NCBI RefSeq assembly: GCF_029338255.1
Contig: NZ_CP119787.1
Span: 2,681,631 to 2,745,630, forward strand
Reading direction: 5' to 3'
From: Haloarcula halobia
GTDB taxonomy: Archaea > Halobacteriota > Halobacteria > Halobacteriales > Haloarculaceae
Length of the DNA stretch: 64,000 nucleotides
Part shown: piece after piece, positions 51,842 through 60,382 of the stretch
How the letters are laid out: every line of letters begins with the position of its first letter
How positions within the stretch are numbered: position 1 is the first letter of the stretch
Position numbers and translations under genes: made by a program
The notes under the pieces: model-generated
What the model was told of the DNA's origin: nothing
Seen by the model: only the letters and a program-made list of their open reading frames with translations
Databases searched by the model: none

Positions 51842-51921
51842 ATACTGCCGGCTGTAACATTTAGAAAATACTCGGCACCCCGGGGTGCCGAGAATCTTTA
51901 CGAACTTACAGCCGGCAGTAT
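51842..51921. repeat. Nested inverted-repeat element (MITE-like or terminator)
   Basis: Outer arms ATACTGCCGGCTGTAA (51842-51857) and its exact complement (51906-51921) enclose a perfect 22-bp palindrome (51871-51892) whose halves are CTCGGCACCCC and GGGGTGCCGAG. The right arm ends on the first base of the GH32 stop codon. Sited between convergent genes, it could terminate both. Terminal inverted repeats plus small size also fit a miniature mobile element. Confidence 0.7.
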
Positions 51922-54086
51922 CAGTCGTCGGGCGGCGCCGTCGGGGCGGCCCCTCTGGCCTCGTCGTGCGCCCACATCGACCCCATCTCCCAGCGGTCCA
52001 GCGACGCGACGGTCGCGCTGCCGCCGTCGGCGGTCAGCGAGACGCCCAGCGCGTCCTCGCGGGTCGGGTAGACCCTGGTCGTCAGGCAGTGGCGCTCGTT
52101 TGCGAACACCTCGACGACCGACCCGTCGACGAACACACGCAGGGAGAGCGGCGCGTCGTAGGGCGTGACCCGCATCGTCTTGGTGTCGCTCGTGGCCTGC
52201 GAGTCGTGGCTGGCCGACGCCCGGTCGACCGCGATATGGCTGTCGCGCGTGTAGCGAATCGGCGTGTACTCCTCGCGGTCGGGCGTCTCCAGGACGGCCA
52301 GTTCGACGGCCTCGGCGTCCTCCAGGCGGACCGTCGCGCGCAGTTCGAACGACCGGCTCTCGGCGTCGAAGTCGACCCGCTCGCCGGCGTCGAGACGAAC
52401 CGCATCGTGGTGGACGTTCTCGCCGCGCAGCTCGGTCAGTTCCGGCGCGGGGCGCTGACAGAGGCCGCCGTCGTCGGCCAGCGACAGCTCGCGAGGGACC
52501 GACATCGCGCCCGACCAGCCGGCGTCCCACTGGGCGCTCACGTCGCGGGCCTCGGGCAACCAGCCCCAGGTGAGGGTGCGGCCGTCGTCGGTCCACATCG
52601 ACTGGGGGGCGTAGTAGTCGCCGTGGTCGAGTCTGTCGCGCCGTTCGACCTCGAACTCGCCGTCCTCGTACTCCCCGACGAAGTAGACGACGTCCTCGTA
52701 GTTCGAGACGTGGAGCAGCTGCTTTGCGCCGAAGTCGAGCAGTTCCGGACACTCCCAGACCGTCCCGTCGAGGTGCTCGTCGCCGGTAAGAATCGGCCCC
52801 TGGTACTCCCAGTCCCGGAGGTCCTCGGACTGATACAGCAGGACGGCGCCGCCGCCGTCCTGCATTCCCGCGCCGATAAGCTGGTTCCAGACGCCGTCGG
52901 CGCGCCAGACGCAGTGGTCGCGGAACTCCCCGTCCCAGTCCTCCGTCGAGAGGACCTGCGGTTCGAGGGGGACCTCCTCGATGATGGGGTTGTCCGGGTC
53001 CGTGACCCACGCGGAGAGGTCGTCGTCGGCCGCCGTGGCGATACAGGGCAGCTGGAGCGTGTCGCGGCCGCCGGTGTAGAGGATGGTCGGCGTCCCGTCG
53101 TCGTCGACGGCACACCCCGACCAGCAGCCGTCGCGGTCCGGGCCGTCGGGCGAGGGCGAGAGCGCGACCGGCCGGTCCGCCCAGTGGACCAGGTCCTCGC
53201 TGACGGCGTGGCCCCAGTGGATGGTGCCGTGGAACGGCCCGGCCGGGTTGTACTGGTAAAAGAGGTGGTAGGTGCCGTCCCAGTGGATGAGTCCGTTGGG
53301 GTCGTTGAGCCAGTTGGCCGGCGCGGTGAGGTGATACGAGGGGCGGTGTGGGTCGTCCGCGAGGCGGCCTCGCAGCGCCGTCATCCCCGCCGTGTCGCGC
53401 GGCCGGTCCGTGAGCGAGACCGTCTCGTCGCCGGCCAGAAAGGCGAGCGCGTCGGCGACGAGTCGCTCGCGGTTCCCCCGACAGACGTCGTCGGTCGGCT
53501 GGCTGAACGAGACGCCGGAGCCGACCCCGAGCACGTCGCCGTCGCCGGGGTGCCAGGTGACCGTCGAGAGCTGCGAGACGACGTCCGTGTCCCCCCGGAC
53601 CGTGCTCGCGAGTACCGTGCCCTCGGCCGGTGCCATCCGCTCGTAGCGGGCGTAGGGCGTCGTCACGCCCGGCCCGCGCGTGTGGACCCGGAGCGTGTCG
53701 AACGCGTCCCGGACGGGGTGGTCACGAAACAGGGTCTTCCAGAGGTGCCCGGCGGGTTCGGGCGTCTCCGCCCAGCCGACGGCGTCTGGGGCGACGGGGT
53801 CGAAACCCAGCGGCTCCACGGCGGCCATCGCGCCCAGCGTCAGCAACAGCGCGCCGCCGTCGCGGACCGAGGACGCGATGCGGTCGGCCCCGCCAACCGG
53901 CAGCTGCGCCTCGTCGAGCGGGTCGTCGCGGTGCCACCAGAGGACGTCGTAGGCCGCCGGGTTGACGTCGGCCAGCGAGCGTCGCTCGACGTCGCCCATC
54001 GCCGAACGGCACCACTCGTACGCTCGCTCCTGCTCGTCGGAACAGGACCCGGCGTAGAGACAGCCGACACGTGGGGTGTCTGCCAT
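51921..54086 (-). CDS. GH32 beta-fructosidase with N-terminal ThuA-like domain
   Basis: 721 residues. The C-terminal about 480 residues are GH32: nucleophile in [12 protein letters not shown] (about 250), RD motif in EFRDHCVW, acid/base glutamate in VWECPEL, and the beta-sandwich tail with [11 protein letters not shown]. The first about 230 residues ([20 protein letters not shown] to [11 protein letters not shown]) resemble a ThuA/class I amidotransferase-like Rossmann domain, an unusual fusion. Likely substrates are sucrose, levan or inulin. No signal peptide, so cytoplasmic. Confidence 0.8.
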
Positions 54087-54429: not shown

Positions 54430-56379
54430 TCACTCCTCGACGACGGGTTTCGGGGTCGCCGACACCGTCAGTTCACGGGCCTCGATGATGGCAGAGAGAC
54501 ACTCGTCGTCCATCAGTCGCACGTCCATCTCGCTTGCCCGCCGGGAGACGTCGCCGCCGATGTGCCCCGAGGTCGCGAACATCACCGCGCTCACCTCGGC
54601 CCGCGCCCGGCGGCACTCCGCACACGCCTCGATGGGGTCGGCGCCGACGAGCCCCCCCTCGGGCCGGTGGTCGACGACGACGGCCATCGCCTCGCTGGCC
54701 GGATCCTCCCGTTCGGCCAGCAGTTCGTACTCCGTCGAGTCGGCCTCGCCGACCGCCCACCCCGACGCGTCGAGGACTTCGGCGACGGTCTCGGCGAACG
54801 CCTCGGGGTCGAGCGAGCGAAGCTGGGCGGCCATCGAGTGGTCCTCGGCCGACTCGGTCGTCCTGGCCGGTTGCTCCCCCGACTCGACGGCGTCGACGGC
54901 GGCCTCGATGTCGCTCTTGGGGTCGGGGTCGTCCGCCGTCATCTCGCCCTCGGACACCGCGTCCGCCTCCGCGTCGTCCGCCGGTGACCCGATGGTCGCC
55001 TCGACGTCGTACTCCGGTTCGAGGTCGGTCTCGATGCGGTCGGGCACCGCCTCGCCGGCCATCGCCGCCTCGACCCGCTCGATGCGCTGGTCGAGGGCCT
55101 CGAGTTCGGTCTCCAAGTGCGTGACCGCGTCCGGATAGCAGTCGCGGGCGGTCTCGAGGGCCGTCTCGTACTTCTGCCGGGCGTCCTCGTACTCCTCGAG
55201 GGCCGTCTCGTACTGTTCGGCGTCGGCGAACCAGTCGCCGGCCCCCATCGCGTCGCTGGCGACGGACCGGCGGGCGGCGGTGAGGTTCTCCGCGACGACG
55301 CGGAGTCGCTCGCGTATCTTCTCCGGGTCGCCGGCGAAGCGGCGCTCGTCGGCCCCCCAGTCGACCTGGAGGGCGGTGCGGTAGTGCTCCAGGGCCTCCG
55401 CCCAGTACTCGGCGGCCTGTCCGGAGTCGTCGGCGGCCGCGGCCTCGTTGTCGGCGGCGACGGCCTTCCGGAGCGGGGACTGTTCGAGCTGTTCGATGAG
55501 CGTGTCCAGTCGGTCCCGTTCGGCGAGTATCTCGTCGATATCGGCCAGGTGTCGGTCGAGCGAGAGGACGGCCTCGTACTCGTCGCGGGCCCGTTCGTAG
55601 GCGTCGTAGGCCGCCTCGTACTCGTCGGCCCGCCAGCGTTCCTCGCCCTCGTCGGTCGCTGTCCGGGCCCGCCCCAGTCGGATGGACGCGAGCGTCCGCA
55701 GGCACCGCTCGCGGACCACCTCGACCCGACTCGCCATCGAGTCGCCCTCGCGACCGGTGTTGAACTCGCTCGCCGTCGTGCTGGCTTTCTCCAGCAGCGT
55801 GCTCGCCCGCTCGGCCGCGGTCAACGCGGCGTCGTTCGATCCGTCGTTGCGCAGCTCGTTTGCCTGGACCAGTTCCCGTTTGACATCGTCGAGCGTGTTC
55901 TCGACGTGGATCCACTTCTGTGCGGCGTCGTCCAGGTACCGCGTGACCGCCCCCAGGCCGTCGCTCTCGCAGTGGATGTACCACCGCGTTCCCCCGGTGC
56001 GGTGGAAGGTGAGTCGCCCGTGTCTGAGACTCGAGTCGCTGTCGACCGTCTCGATCTCCGCGAAGGGGACGGCGAACTGCCGGTCCCCGCCGTCGGAATC
56101 GGCGCCGCCCACCAGGACGACGACCCGCCGGTCTGTCAGGACGGCGACAGTCCGGTACCCGCTCCCCGGTCTGACGTGGTCGGTCGTGTCCCCGGACTCG
56201 ACGGAGACCCCGTTCTTCGAGTTCGTGACGACGTACTGTGGCGTCTCGTCGGCCTCTATCGCCGAGACGGCGGGTTTCTCGGCGAGATACCCTTTGGACA
56301 GGAACCCACCCCGTCCGGTACTGGTGAGCACGTCGGGATACGACCCACCTAAATTATCTAAATTGATAATTTGACCCAT
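54430..56379 (-). CDS. PH-like, coiled-coil and REase-like multidomain protein
   Basis: 649 residues in three parts. Residues about 30-170 look like a bacterial PH-type domain (YRTVAVLTDRRVVVLVGG, VPFAEIETVDSD). About 180-440 is a long charged helical array with TPR-like units (YEAAYDAYERARDEYEA). About 520-635 matches the Mrr-type restriction endonuclease fold (AETVAEVLDASGWAVGEADS, VMFATSGHIGGDVSRRASEM), but the catalytic acidic residue and lysine are replaced (YELLAERED, VVVDHRPE). It therefore probably binds DNA or another partner without cutting. The combination resembles stress or defence adaptors; role unknown. Confidence 0.6.
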   Translation of the reverse strand: MGQIINLDNLGGSYPDVLTSTGRGGFLSKGYLAEKPAVSAIEADETPQYVVTNSKNGVSVESGDTTDHVRPGSGYRTVAVLTDRRVVVLVGGADSDGGDRQFAVPFAEIETVDSDSSLRHGRLTFHRTGGTRWYIHCESDGLGAVTRYLDDAAQKWIHVENTLDDVKRELVQANELRNDGSNDAALTAAERASTLLEKASTTASEFNTGREGDSMASRVEVVRERCLRTLASIRLGRARTATDEGEERWRADEYEAAYDAYERARDEYEAVLSLDRHLADIDEILAERDRLDTLIEQLEQSPLRKAVAADNEAAAADDSGQAAEYWAEALEHYRTALQVDWGADERRFAGDPEKIRERLRVVAENLTAARRSVASDAMGAGDWFADAEQYETALEEYEDARQKYETALETARDCYPDAVTHLETELEALDQRIERVEAAMAGEAVPDRIETDLEPEYDVEATIGSPADDAEADAVSEGEMTADDPDPKSDIEAAVDAVESGEQPARTTESAEDHSMAAQLRSLDPEAFAETVAEVLDASGWAVGEADSTEYELLAEREDPASEAMAVVVDHRPEGGLVGADPIEACAECRRARAEVSAVMFATSGHIGGDVSRRASEMDVRLMDDECLSAIIEARELTVSATPKPVVEE

Positions 56380-56591
56380 TATGAGAGACTACTATGTCGG
56401 GCACTATGATTCTCACTTATTGGTTCTGAAATTTCGTCGTTAATATTAACAGGGTACTACTTACTTGCATATCAGGACTGGGTGGAAGCCCCTTCCGTTG
56501 CATGGTTCCCCCCTGAGAACGGGCCGCGTCTGTCGGCGGACGGACGCGCGTCTGACTTACCTTTACCTATCAGGTCCAAGTACCAGGGCGT

Positions 56592-56804
56592 ATGCCCCGC
56601 ATCCGACTGGACCCGCCGGAGTTCGAGCGGTCCACCGACGCCACCGGAGGGAACGACCGAACGGGTCGGGCGGCCGCTCGCGACGACGCCTTCGCCCGGA
56701 TCGACACCGAGGTGTTTCAGGTGCTCTCGGGGACCTACGGGCTCGAGAAGTGCGGGCTCCGACCGCGAATCGATCGCTGGATGGAGTGCTGGAGCGACGT
56801 TTAG
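56592..56804 (+). CDS. Small haloarchaeal protein, unknown
   Basis: 70 residues starting MPRIRLDPPEFERSTD and ending RPRIDRWMECWSDV. Its ATG lies about 27 bp after a CCTTTACC box near 56560, as expected for a leaderless gene, and the helical C-terminus looks coding. It overlaps the actin gene tail to tail by 4 bp. Confidence 0.5.
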   Translation: MPRIRLDPPEFERSTDATGGNDRTGRAAARDDAFARIDTEVFQVLSGTYGLEKCGLRPRIDRWMECWSDV

Positions 56805-57865
56805 CTGTTCTCGACCAGGCGGGCGGCGATGCGCTGTGCGCCGAGGGTCGGGGCGACGTCCGGCTGTTCGGCCGCCGTCGCCTCGACGTCGCGGTTGAGC
56901 TCCTCGCTGAGTCGTTCCTCGAACTCGTCGACGATGCCTGGGATGCAGGCCATCCCGCCGGTCAGGACCACCGGACGGTCCAGCGCCAGCTTGTACACCT
57001 TCATGTAGTCGTTCGCCAGCTCCGGCAGGAACGTGTTGGCCAGCTCGTCGACTACGTCGTCCAGGTACTCGTCGACGGCGTCCATCACCGACCGCTCGAT
57101 GGTGAACTCGTGTGACCCGCCACCGGGTTGCTGGATGATGTCCGTGAACGGTTCGAAGTCGATGAAGTCGGCGTGTTCCTCCTTGTACTCGCGGGCGGTC
57201 TGGGTGTCGATGTTGACCCGGCCCTGGGTCTCCTCCTCGACGTAGTTGGCGATCATCCGGTCGACCTCGTTGCCCGTCACGGCACCGGTGGTGAACGGGG
57301 AGAGCTGTTCGCCCCGTCGGTACGCGGAGGCCTCGAGGTTCGTCGACCCCATGTTGACCGCGACGAATATCTGGTCGATGGCCTCCAGGTCGTCGCCGAA
57401 GGCCGGAATCGACCCGCAGAGCGACTCGGGGTAGCTCTCGACTAACTCCATGCCGATAGAGGACCCCTCGATGACCGACTGGAGGTTCTCCAGTCCCGTC
57501 GGGTTGTCGATGGTCGGAATCGCGTAGACGACGCCGCTGTCGGCCGGGAGGTCGTTCTCCTCGATGAGGGCCTCGAAGAACGTCTCGGTCATCTCCGCCC
57601 GGTCTGCGTCCTCCGGCAGCCCCGAACGGAGCATGTACTGGACCCGGTCGGGGTACTCGCGAGCGGCCTCCTCGCCGTAGAGCACCTTCTCCTCGCCGGT
57701 GAGGGCGTCCTCGTAAGTTGCCATGCAGGTCAGCGTCTTGATGATGCGTGTGTCGGTACCGTGGTCGTCCGGGAGCGCGATGACCGTCCGCGTGCTGCCG
57801 AGCTTGACCCCGATCGGCACCACCCCGTTGGCATCGTCCGCCCCGTCAGCGTCGTCGTCACTCAT
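56801..57865 (-). CDS. Actin/Hsp70-superfamily protein, salactin-like
   Basis: 354 residues. Phosphate-1 loop VKLGSTRTVIALPDD (about 19-33), phosphate-2 loop VAVNMGSTNLEASAYRRG (about 167) and adenosine motif PVVLTGGMACIPGIVDEF (about 305) define an actin-fold ATPase. Length and first loop resemble salactin, the dynamically unstable haloarchaeal actin described in Halobacterium, better than MreB or DnaK. It has its own TATA-like box about 26 bp upstream (57891-57900) and follows the FlaCE-domain gene on the same strand. A polymerising partitioning or polarity factor is the inferred role. Confidence 0.7.
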   Translation of the reverse strand: MSDDDADGADDANGVVPIGVKLGSTRTVIALPDDHGTDTRIIKTLTCMATYEDALTGEEKVLYGEEAAREYPDRVQYMLRSGLPEDADRAEMTETFFEALIEENDLPADSGVVYAIPTIDNPTGLENLQSVIEGSSIGMELVESYPESLCGSIPAFGDDLEAIDQIFVAVNMGSTNLEASAYRRGEQLSPFTTGAVTGNEVDRMIANYVEEETQGRVNIDTQTAREYKEEHADFIDFEPFTDIIQQPGGGSHEFTIERSVMDAVDEYLDDVVDELANTFLPELANDYMKVYKLALDRPVVLTGGMACIPGIVDEFEERLSEELNRDVEATAAEQPDVAPTLGAQRIAARLVENS

Positions 57866-57890
57866 GTACGGTGGCCTGTTGACGCTGGTC

Positions 57891-57900
57891 CGGTATATAA
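57891..57900 (-). promoter_or_regulatory. TATA-like box of the salactin-like gene
   Basis: On the minus strand GTTATATACC lies 26 bp before the ATG at 57865. Confidence 0.5.
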
Positions 57901-57947
57901 CCTCACGTCAAGAATCAGCCGTGATAAACCCGCGGTCGGCCTCGGAC

Positions 57948-58445
57948 TCAGCGCATCGCCGACAGCTTGGCGACGTAGACGAGGCTGAGCAGGTGGTCGT
58001 CGACGCTCAGGGTGTTGTCGTCGTTCGTCGCCGACTCGTCGATGCCCAGCAGGTAGTCCGAGAGCGTCGCCTGGACGTCCTCGGTTATCCAGTCGATGGA
58101 CTCGTAGTAGTCCAGCGCCTCGTCGGCGCCCTGGTAGCCCGAGTGCATCAGGAGGAACTCCAGCCACTCGAAGACCACGAACTCGGCGGCGTAGTTCTCC
58201 GGGAGGGCCGCGAGGTACGGCTTCTCTGCCGTCTCGCCACCGAGGAACGGCAGCAGTTCGCGGTAGAGGCCCGACCGGAAGGAGCTGCCCGCGAGCATCT
58301 CCTCCTCGGCGTCTTCGAGCCCGATGTCCAGGTTCGACGGGTCAGGGACGTCTTCGTCGTCGGCCAGCCCGTTGTCCCGGTCGTCGCGCTGTCGGGCCAT
58401 CTTGCGCAACTCGTCTAGATCGTAATCGCGCGGGTTTATGGTCAT
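57948..58445 (-). CDS. FlaCE/FlaD-domain protein
   Basis: 165 residues. The C-terminal about 110 residues contain KPYLAALPENYAAEFVVFEW, then YYESIDWITEDVQATLSDYL, the signature of the FlaD/FlaE (ArlD/E) domain that links the archaellum motor to the chemotaxis machinery. Upstream is an acidic helical arm. It lies outside any archaellum operon, next to ParA, CheW-domain and actin genes. Start at 58445 is supported by a TATA-like TTTATG box about 30 bp upstream. Confidence 0.8.
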   Translation of the reverse strand: MTINPRDYDLDELRKMARQRDDRDNGLADDEDVPDPSNLDIGLEDAEEEMLAGSSFRSGLYRELLPFLGGETAEKPYLAALPENYAAEFVVFEWLEFLLMHSGYQGADEALDYYESIDWITEDVQATLSDYLLGIDESATNDDNTLSVDDHLLSLVYVAKLSAMR

Positions 58446-58576
58446 GTGACAGCTGTGTTCCGCCTCCTCCGTCATAAACCTTGCACCCCGTCTGACGGCC
58501 GTCAGACGGCCAGATACCGAGAAATCACCGAGATTCGCAATGCCGCACCGAGTTACGCGGATGATAATCGGGGGCG

Positions 58577-58587
58577 TATTTTTATAG
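58577..58587 (+). promoter_or_regulatory. TATA-like box of the parA-cheW operon
   Basis: TATTTTTATAG ends 33 bp before the ATG at 58620. Confidence 0.45.
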
Positions 58588-58619
58588 TGGCCGAGGGTCG
58601 AGATTCCTCCAGTTGGACG

Positions 58620-59516
58620 ATGAGTCGGCACGACGACGCCGGTCCGGCCCGCATCTGCGTGACCAACGCAAAGGGCGGGACCGGGAAGACGACGGTCGCG
58701 ATAAACGTAGCGGGAGCGCTGAACGACCGGGGTCGAGACGTCCTCTTCGTCGACCTGGACCCGCAGGGCAACGCCACGGAGGGGCTCGGACTCGTCGAGG
58801 CCTACGACGCCGACCCGCCGTCGCTGTTCGACGCGCTGACGCGTGACCCCGCACTCCTCTCGGACCTGGTGGTCGAACACGAGGAGATGGACGTCGTCCC
58901 ATCGAGCATCGACATGCTCCAGGCCGAACACGAGCTGACGATAGCGGACCTGATCGCCCGTGCCAGGACACAGGACCGCGACGTCGACCCGGCCGCGCTG
59001 GCCTCCTTTGGGTTCAACGTGACGCCGGCGACGGTCGAGGGCGGGCACGCCCTCGACGTGCTCGACCGGGCGCTGGGGACGGTCAAATCCGAGTACGACT
59101 ACGTCATCATCGACTCGCCCCCCTTCTACGGGAAGCTGACCGACACCGGCGTGTTCGCCGCGCGGCACATCCTGGTCCCGGCGCTGGCGGAGGCCACCTC
59201 CGAGCGGGCCATCGAACTGCTGATGGACCAGATGGCCGCGCTGGAGCGCCAGACCGGGATCAGCGTCGAGACGGTCGGCGTGGTCGCGAACCGCATCGAG
59301 GCCACCTCGGAGGACGAGATGATGCTCGAGTGGTTCGACGCGGCCTTCCCGGACAGTCCGGTGTGGCAGGTCCGCAAGCGCGTCGCGCTCCAGCGGGCCT
59401 ACACCGCCGGGAACTCCGTCTTCGGCGTCGAGGAACAGTGTGACATGGCCAGCGTCTTCGAGGACATCGCCGACAGGTTCGACGAGCAGTTCGGATTCAC
59501 CGAGGTGATAGCATGA
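58620..59516 (+). CDS. ParA/MinD-family ATPase
   Basis: 298 residues with the deviant Walker A KGGTGKTT (about 17), the A' motif LFVDLDPQGNA and Walker B YVIIDSPP (about 163). It thus dimerises on ATP and most likely forms gradients on the nucleoid or membrane. It overlaps the CheW-domain gene (ATGA at 59513-59516) and diverges from the FlaCE-domain gene. No ParB or replication origin is nearby, so positioning of a protein array fits better than plasmid segregation. Confidence 0.85.
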   Translation: MSRHDDAGPARICVTNAKGGTGKTTVAINVAGALNDRGRDVLFVDLDPQGNATEGLGLVEAYDADPPSLFDALTRDPALLSDLVVEHEEMDVVPSSIDMLQAEHELTIADLIARARTQDRDVDPAALASFGFNVTPATVEGGHALDVLDRALGTVKSEYDYVIIDSPPFYGKLTDTGVFAARHILVPALAEATSERAIELLMDQMAALERQTGISVETVGVVANRIEATSEDEMMLEWFDAAFPDSPVWQVRKRVALQRAYTAGNSVFGVEEQCDMASVFEDIADRFDEQFGFTEVIA

Positions 59517-60382
59517 GTGACGACGACCGCATGGACAGAGCAGAGCGTATCCGCAAGATGCGCGAGGGGAACCGGACCGAGACAGACGCGGACGCGACTG
59601 ATGGGCCGGCGGACGACGTACAGGAGACCGCCGCGGGCAGCGAGGGGTCGGGTGAGTCCGAGACGGCCGACCCCGACGAAGCGCCCGGCGACGAGACGGC
59701 GATGGCGGCCGCCGAGCGGGCCGCCCAGACGGCTGCGGAGGTGGCCGGCGGGACAGACGCCACGGCCCAAGCCACCGAGGAGCTGCAGGCGGCCACGCAG
59801 GCGGCCGCCGAGACGGCGCAGGGCCCGACGGGCGTCGAACTCCCCGACCAGCAGGTCGTCGAGGCGGCCATGGCAGAGAGCGAGGCCGAGGAGACGACCG
59901 GCGCGGCGAGCGCCGCGGCCATGGACGAGGGGTCGAACCAGTCAGAAGAGCTCGTCCGCGTCCTCGAGTTCGCGCTGGGCGAGGAATATTACTGCCTGGA
60001 CATCGAGTACGTCGAGGAGATCGTCAAGCGCGAGGACGTGACGCGGGTCCCGAACACCGAGGCCTACGTCGAGGGCGTGGTCGACCTCCGGGGACAGATA
60101 ACGACGATTCTGGACCCGAAGGCGATGATGGACATCGACGACGACGGCGACCAGAATCTCATCGTCGTCTTCGATCCCGACGTGTTCGAAGAGCAGGGGG
60201 CCATCGGCTGGATCGTCGACGAGGTCCGCCAGGTCTCGCCGGTGGTCGAGGCGGAGGTCAACAGCCCTCCGGTCGACGCCGACTACATCAACGGCGTCGT
60301 CGACCGGGAGGAACGAGAGCAGTTCGTCATCTGGGTCGAACCCGACGACGCACTCGAGTCGGCCACCGCCGAGGGCGACTGA
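59513..60382 (+). CDS. CheW-domain protein with acidic N-terminal extension
   Basis: 289 residues. Residues about 1-140 are low-complexity, acidic and alanine-rich. Residues about 143-280 form a CheW-like domain (VLEFALGEEYYCLDIEYVEEIVK, VVDLRGQITTILDPKAM, EEQGAIGWIVDEVRQVSPVV). The extension resembles linkers that link chemosensory arrays to positioning ATPases. It is translationally coupled to the ParA gene, so the two most likely act in one complex. Confidence 0.8.
   Translation: MSDDDRMDRAERIRKMREGNRTETDADATDGPADDVQETAAGSEGSGESETADPDEAPGDETAMAAAERAAQTAAEVAGGTDATAQATEELQAATQAAAETAQGPTGVELPDQQVVEAAMAESEAEETTGAASAAAMDEGSNQSEELVRVLEFALGEEYYCLDIEYVEEIVKREDVTRVPNTEAYVEGVVDLRGQITTILDPKAMMDIDDDGDQNLIVVFDPDVFEEQGAIGWIVDEVRQVSPVVEAEVNSPPVDADYINGVVDREEREQFVIWVEPDDALESATAEGD

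Follow-up and report, generated by a model that had tools for sequence, protein, structure and literature searches.

Two conserved gene pairs, arlD-salactin and parA-cheW, around a divergent intergenic region of Haloarcula halobia: candidate modules for placing archaella and chemoreceptor arrays

Why should an actin gene stand beside the gene of an archaellum protein and, across a short divergent gap, next to a ParA-type ATPase gene that overlaps one for a CheW-domain protein? The question is raised by a 64,000-nucleotide stretch of the Haloarcula halobia genome (NCBI RefSeq assembly GCF_029338255.1, contig NZ_CP119787.1, positions 2,681,631 to 2,745,630), referred to here as the window, in which a first-pass annotation had placed these four genes in two divergent transcripts and proposed that they form one system. 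Open reading frames and profile searches find all four there. The minus strand encodes salactin, an actin-like ATPase of 354 amino acids (56801..57865; PF25229, 622 bits; NF053533, 604.6 bits, cut-off 400), and, 5' of it, the 165-residue product of arlD, or flaD, an Arch_fla_DE protein (57948..58445; PF04659, 102.5 bits, cut-off 21). On the plus strand, a Walker ATPase of the ParA family (298 amino acids, 58620..59516; AAA_31, 120 bits; Walker A motif KGGTGKTT) is followed by a CheW adaptor of 289 amino acids (59513..60382; PF01584, 80 bits, with the CheW domain at residues 150-283). The gap between arlD and parA is 174 bp long and contains, towards either end, TATA-like boxes that are conserved in an intergenic alignment, one for arlD-salactin (58473..58480, minus strand) at a conserved position and one, near-invariant, for parA-cheW (58578..58587, plus strand), which makes the two divergent transcripts plausible. 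The explanation that we favour, and consider probable, is that the locus combines two placement modules, arlD-salactin and parA-cheW, sharing one divergent promoter region. The case for the first is built on co-directional adjacency, on arl operons devoid of arlD in the linked lineages and on near-complete co-occurrence with the archaellum motor; that for the second on gene overlap, on conservation of an N-terminal motif and on the presence of this motif in the partners of plasmid ParA proteins.

The identity of the Arch_fla_DE protein is central to the first module. The window genome, near-complete in two contigs, has two Arch_fla_DE genes in all, that of the window and the arlCE of the arl operon, which lies at 729-736 kb of contig C1, reads cheY-cheC-cheD-arlCE-arlF-arlG-arlH-arlI-arlJ and includes no separate arlD. 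Because the operon lacks this gene, the window protein is, to judge from gene content, the only ArlD of the genome and not an extra paralogue; the first-pass annotation, which had described a FlaD/E protein outside any archaellum operon, was thus right about the location but had not recognised that this is the missing ArlD itself. The protein consists of an N-terminal motif (MTINPRDYDLDELRKMA), a disordered linker and a helical Arch_fla_DE domain, and its motif, MTINPRDYDLDELR in the window against MTLNPREYDPEELR in the arlD of the Halobacterium arl operon, marks the two as orthologous. In a structure model based on 28 homologues the N-terminal helix has modest confidence, the linker is disordered and the helical domain is confident; a PDB sequence search and a fold search with ArlD gave no relative. 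In the archaellum, ArlD is a cytosolic component of the switch complex. It is required for motility and forms polar foci, with small foci that move between the poles (PMC6509185). It is likewise absent from the arl operons of those linked genera that were inspected; in Halobacterium, by contrast, arlD lies inside the arl operon and salactin stands alone. In Haloferax, another gene resembling arlD (MPLDPRRYNVNELRHAA), a second one, lies in the neighbourhood of salactin (locus L222, 15066-15506; locus L227, 11116-11574).

How general is the pairing? A search of 292 genomes of the class returned a salactin match in 143, above cut-off in 141, and regions of about 15 kb surrounding 122 of the genes, together with the window, provided 123 loci from 28 genera for comparison. 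In 93 of them arlD is directly 5' of salactin on the same strand; an Arch_fla_DE gene is directly 3' of salactin in five more and adjacent on the opposite strand in two, bringing the adjacent cases to 100 of 123, while two loci have one within 5 kb without adjacency and 21 have none nearby. The link extends to 26 of the 28 genera and, when a single locus per genus is taken for an unbiased comparison of families, an Arch_fla_DE neighbour is found in 25 of 28, the next commonest family reaching 7. By our own estimate, chance adjacency would amount to about 0.1% per gene, and the neighbourhood is far beyond chance because the window genome has only two Arch_fla_DE genes and yet 100 of 123 salactin genes adjoin one. 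In a salactin tree, rooted for drawing only, unlinked salactins are nested among linked ones, the Halobacterium group as a single nested clade; long branches lead to many of the Haloferax salactins, and the window protein shares 98% identity with the salactin of Halomicroarcula sp. SYNS111.

Two arrangements bring salactin closer still to archaellum genes. In Halovenus carboxidivorans it occurs twice inside the arl operon (L228, 9917-15740), where an arlCE-like gene follows each copy and arlH is duplicated. The fla-che clusters of Haloferax larsenii, H. elongans and Halogeometricum limi also include salactin, placed after cheY-cheC-cheD and arlD. The earlier suggestion that the actin is linked to the archaellum is supported across haloarchaea, through ArlD. 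Salactin has been described as poorly syntenic and without conserved context (PMC10746226), which the arlD linkage contradicts; that description was based on the surroundings of the Halobacterium gene, and Halobacterium is among the two sampled genera that lack the linkage. A literature search, largely of open-access journals, found no paper that connects arl genes with salactin or any other actin, and we regard the pairing as new, each component being of a known kind. Salactin also keeps company with the archaellum motor. ArlJ is present in 228 of the 292 genomes, and in 138 of the 141 with salactin against 90 of the 151 without it (Fisher p 2e-17, relatedness ignored).

The second pair is more restricted. 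Of the 292 genomes, 48 have an orthologue of the window ParA (E <= 1e-60), and nearly all of these are Haloarculaceae; its nearest solved relatives include ParA/Soj proteins, and it scores 85.6 bits with the ParA_partition profile, below the cut-off of 180. In the window parA and cheW overlap by 4 bp, and a CheW gene directly follows ParA, mostly with the same overlap, in 60 of 62 distinct orthologues, one further case being cut by the edge of the sequence examined. The adaptor has a basic N-terminal motif (DRMDRAERIRKMREGNR), a hypervariable acidic linker and a conserved C-terminal CheW domain. Its N-terminus is near-invariant (RMDRAxRIRxMREGxR, with RMDRA.RIR invariant in a 12-row alignment) and, of 58 distinct adaptors, 53 have the motif, while the rest are mostly start-codon mis-calls, cut genes or one-residue variants; the mean net charge is +4.2 for the motif core and -0.27 per residue for the linker. 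In ParB-type partners, a basic N-terminal region is believed to bind ParA and to stimulate ATP hydrolysis by it (PMC9178275). The extension of the CheW protein, in which a coupling to ParA had been suspected before, looks like a ParA contact of this sort, with a motif shared with plasmid ParA partners. Halobacterium (L168, L177) offers another case in which genes for a MinD/ParA-type ATPase and for CheW stand together near those of the archaellum: a MinD gene closes the arl operon, with a short CheW gene nearby.

Where did this pair come from? Plasmid and plasmid-like relatives of the window ParA also have an overlapping next gene whose product begins with the same type of N-terminus and ends in another domain. 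The nearest plasmid-type relative, the ParA of genome G236, is 66% identical to the window ParA; its partner carries the motif RMGRADRIRNTREGRR, reads MSDEGESESDDRMGRADRIRNTREGRR, and domain searches found in it neither CheW nor any other known domain. Plasmid NC_006391 of Haloarcula marismortui has the same layout of ParA and overlapping, motif-bearing partner. The simplest reading of these sequences is that the chromosomal pair derives from a plasmid partition pair in which the cargo domain was exchanged for CheW, the direction of the exchange being our inference, and such a swap would be new. Two further ParA-family genes, with identical scores, are found on the 129-kb second contig of the window genome (C2:30107 and 105708), suggesting a duplicated stretch.

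The neighbourhood as a whole is conserved as two modules, arlD-salactin and parA-cheW. That the four genes would be conserved as a unit proved true within Haloarculaceae, which account for most of the 52 loci examined in which all four are contiguous (some being the same genome counted twice), so that this order of genes is characteristic of the family. In other genera the pairs separate: Halorientalis and Halapricum have parA-cheW apart from arlD-salactin, some Halorhabdus keep arlD and parA together without salactin, and most genera have arlD-salactin and no parA.

What might the modules do? ArlD and salactin are probably made from one transcript. Most likely, by contact or transport, salactin filaments would either be anchored on the side of the pole by ArlD, or by its polar structure, or carry it as cargo, and their growth and catastrophe would hold, deliver or share out pole-forming material at division. 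In the parA-cheW module, ATP-bound ParA would sit on the nucleoid, the adaptor would enter chemoreceptor arrays by binding through its CheW domain, its basic N-terminal helix would trigger ATP hydrolysis by ParA, and a diffusion ratchet could then spread and segregate the arrays. That both halves hold in their full form, salactin being, with ArlD, the actin of the archaellated pole, which anchors, delivers or segregates the archaellum/polar-cap organelle, and haloarchaea having independently built a ParA system for array segregation through the CheW swap, is a bolder proposal, advanced here tentatively and with somewhat less than even confidence. Should salactin serve the archaellated pole in this way, it would be a first, since we know of no other prokaryotic actin devoted to an organelle of motility.

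Several observations weigh against this picture. Ninety sampled genomes carry ArlJ without salactin, and one locus (L184) has an ArlD outside the arl operon with no salactin beside it. Conversely, three genomes without ArlJ, two of Halocatena and one Haloplanus-like (G289), keep arlD beside salactin, and in them (loci L084, L095 and L300) the ArlI orthologue and ArlCE are absent too. Mainly because these motor-less genomes retain the pair, caution is due about a function confined to the archaellum: arlD-salactin does not always serve one, and its role can outlast the motor. A strict dependence of salactin on the archaellum was considered and rejected on account of the same three exceptions. 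On the side of the second module, structure prediction for the CheW adaptor gave a model too poor for use (mean predicted local distance difference test score, pLDDT, of 50), apart from an N-terminal helix of low confidence. Finally, deletion of salactin in H. salinarum left motility unchanged and caused defects of DNA partition and viability in low phosphate (PMC10746226), evidence that is tempered by the absence of arlD-salactin linkage in Halobacterium, the genus in which the deletion was studied.

That phenotype introduces the main rival to the proposed arlD-salactin module, namely that salactin is a ParM-like actin for chromosome segregation, with ArlD as its polar anchor or marker and a protein encoded downstream, with a weak Mrr-type domain, as a possible link to DNA. 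Besides the partition defect, the H. salinarum protein shows dynamic instability, its filaments emanating, growing and shrinking from the poles (PMC10746226), and the motor-less genomes that keep the pair count in favour of this reading. So does the gene 3' of salactin (54430..56379, minus strand), conserved in Haloarculaceae and possibly a third member of the salactin transcript, whose product has a GxGGxxxxGYL N-terminus, a coiled-coil or TPR-like middle and a C-terminus with weak likeness to Mrr_cat; all 54 matches of its family near salactin, none more than three genes away, lie on the strand of salactin. Members occur 3' of salactin in many Haloarculaceae, even without adjacent arlD, and some have a weak Mrr_cat C-terminus. 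Yet the Mrr_cat match of the window protein (20 bits) falls just under the cut-off of 21 and shorter homologues lack the C-terminal part in which it lies, no centromere-like repeats were found near the window genes, and DNA partition fits poorly with the strong co-occurrence of salactin with ArlJ and with its place within the arl operon of Halovenus. We judge a partition role of this kind unlikely, if deserving of serious attention. Beyond this gene the window encodes, at 51921-54086 (minus strand), a protein with NDPNGL and related motifs that looks like a GH32 fructan or sucrose hydrolase.

A more frugal explanation is that the promoter region is shared for joint expression, while ArlD and salactin, and likewise the two modules, never touch physically. 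A candidate operator lies 5' of the arlD TATA-like box, a perfect 22-bp palindrome (CCGTCTGACGGCCGTCAGACGG, 58488..58509) identified in the intergenic alignment and holding two GTCWGAC sites 11 bp apart. The element GTCWGAC-N4-GTCWGAC occurs 28 times in the scanned loci (those over 5 kb) and the window, all but once 5' of arlD, where it is seen in Haloarculaceae. A GTCWGAC regulon reaching beyond arlD was considered and rejected: the window genome has three exact sites, the window's included, and the two others lie near unrelated genes. Such a conserved operator-like motif, in genomes where clustering of motility genes is common, speaks for this explanation, but co-regulation would leave unexplained why arlD sits with salactin and not in the arl operon in many genera, and why plasmid ParA partners and the CheW adaptor have an N-terminal motif in common; as a complete account we find it improbable. 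The weakest candidate is the single four-part machine of the first-pass annotation, in which actin and ParA jointly position an archaellum-array complex, with ArlD and the CheW adaptor as the bridge: the 52 contiguous loci and the conserved elements of the shared promoter region speak for it, but the arlD-salactin link spans 26 of 28 genera against 48 of 292 genomes for ParA, the pairs split as described above, and FlaD/ArlD and CheW foci localise independently in Haloferax volcanii (PMC6509185), all of which makes it improbable. For the two modules together, the data go no further than shared regulation.

The function of salactin is unsettled, and its pairing with ArlD across most salactin-bearing genera points to a specific candidate partner, part of a motor that has been studied well. 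The window protein belongs to the same family as the salactin of Halobacterium salinarum, matching the equivalog model over its full length; the two differ in that the Halobacterium gene, for which the published study proposed a role in DNA partition (PMC10746226), is not beside arlD, whereas here and in most genera salactin is. In Haloferax, the polar foci of ArlD are influenced by MinD2 and by MinD4, and the effect of MinD2 on CheW foci was examined as well (PMC11588486). The present locus differs in pairing arlD with an actin gene and in having a plasmid-type ParA, not MinD, for its ATPase. With ParMRC the locus would share a dynamically unstable actin, instability from the poles and a part in DNA partition being known for salactin only from H. 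salinarum, and with ParABS it shares a ParA whose partner has a basic N-terminal motif. The cargo proposed here, unlike theirs, is protein, and the accompanying parts differ: no direct repeats of at least 14 nt are present at 57800-58700 or 56300-56850, no ParR-like adaptor gene was seen beside the actin gene, and ParA has no ParB next to it, the next gene being CheW in the 60 of 62 orthologues already mentioned. The layout of the adaptor (basic N-terminal motif, linker, separate cargo domain) does resemble that of a ParB-like adaptor, its motif being shared with plasmid partners.

The closest counterparts of the parA-cheW pair are bacterial systems for chemoreceptor arrays. In Rhodobacter sphaeroides the partner of the ATPase PpfA is TlpT, a chemoreceptor, and here the partner of ParA is a CheW adaptor. 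PpfA itself is an orphan ParA that segregates chemoreceptor clusters (PMC9178275), as we propose for the haloarchaeal protein. ParC/ParP of Vibrio is alike in its layout, in which the partner of a ParA-type ATPase contacts ParA through its N-terminal region, as the haloarchaeal adaptor would, and continues through a long linker to a CheW-like domain at the C-terminus (PMC5706961); profiles and alignment find this architecture in the window pair, which looks like an archaeal counterpart of ParC/ParP. The resemblance is one of architecture. An independent origin is likely, since the haloarchaeal linker is acidic and both the motif and ParA have their nearest relatives in the ParA-partner pairs of haloarchaeal plasmids. 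The parA-cheW pair suggests how a machine for DNA partition can become one for protein arrays by a single exchange of domains, with its plasmid relatives still at hand for comparison.

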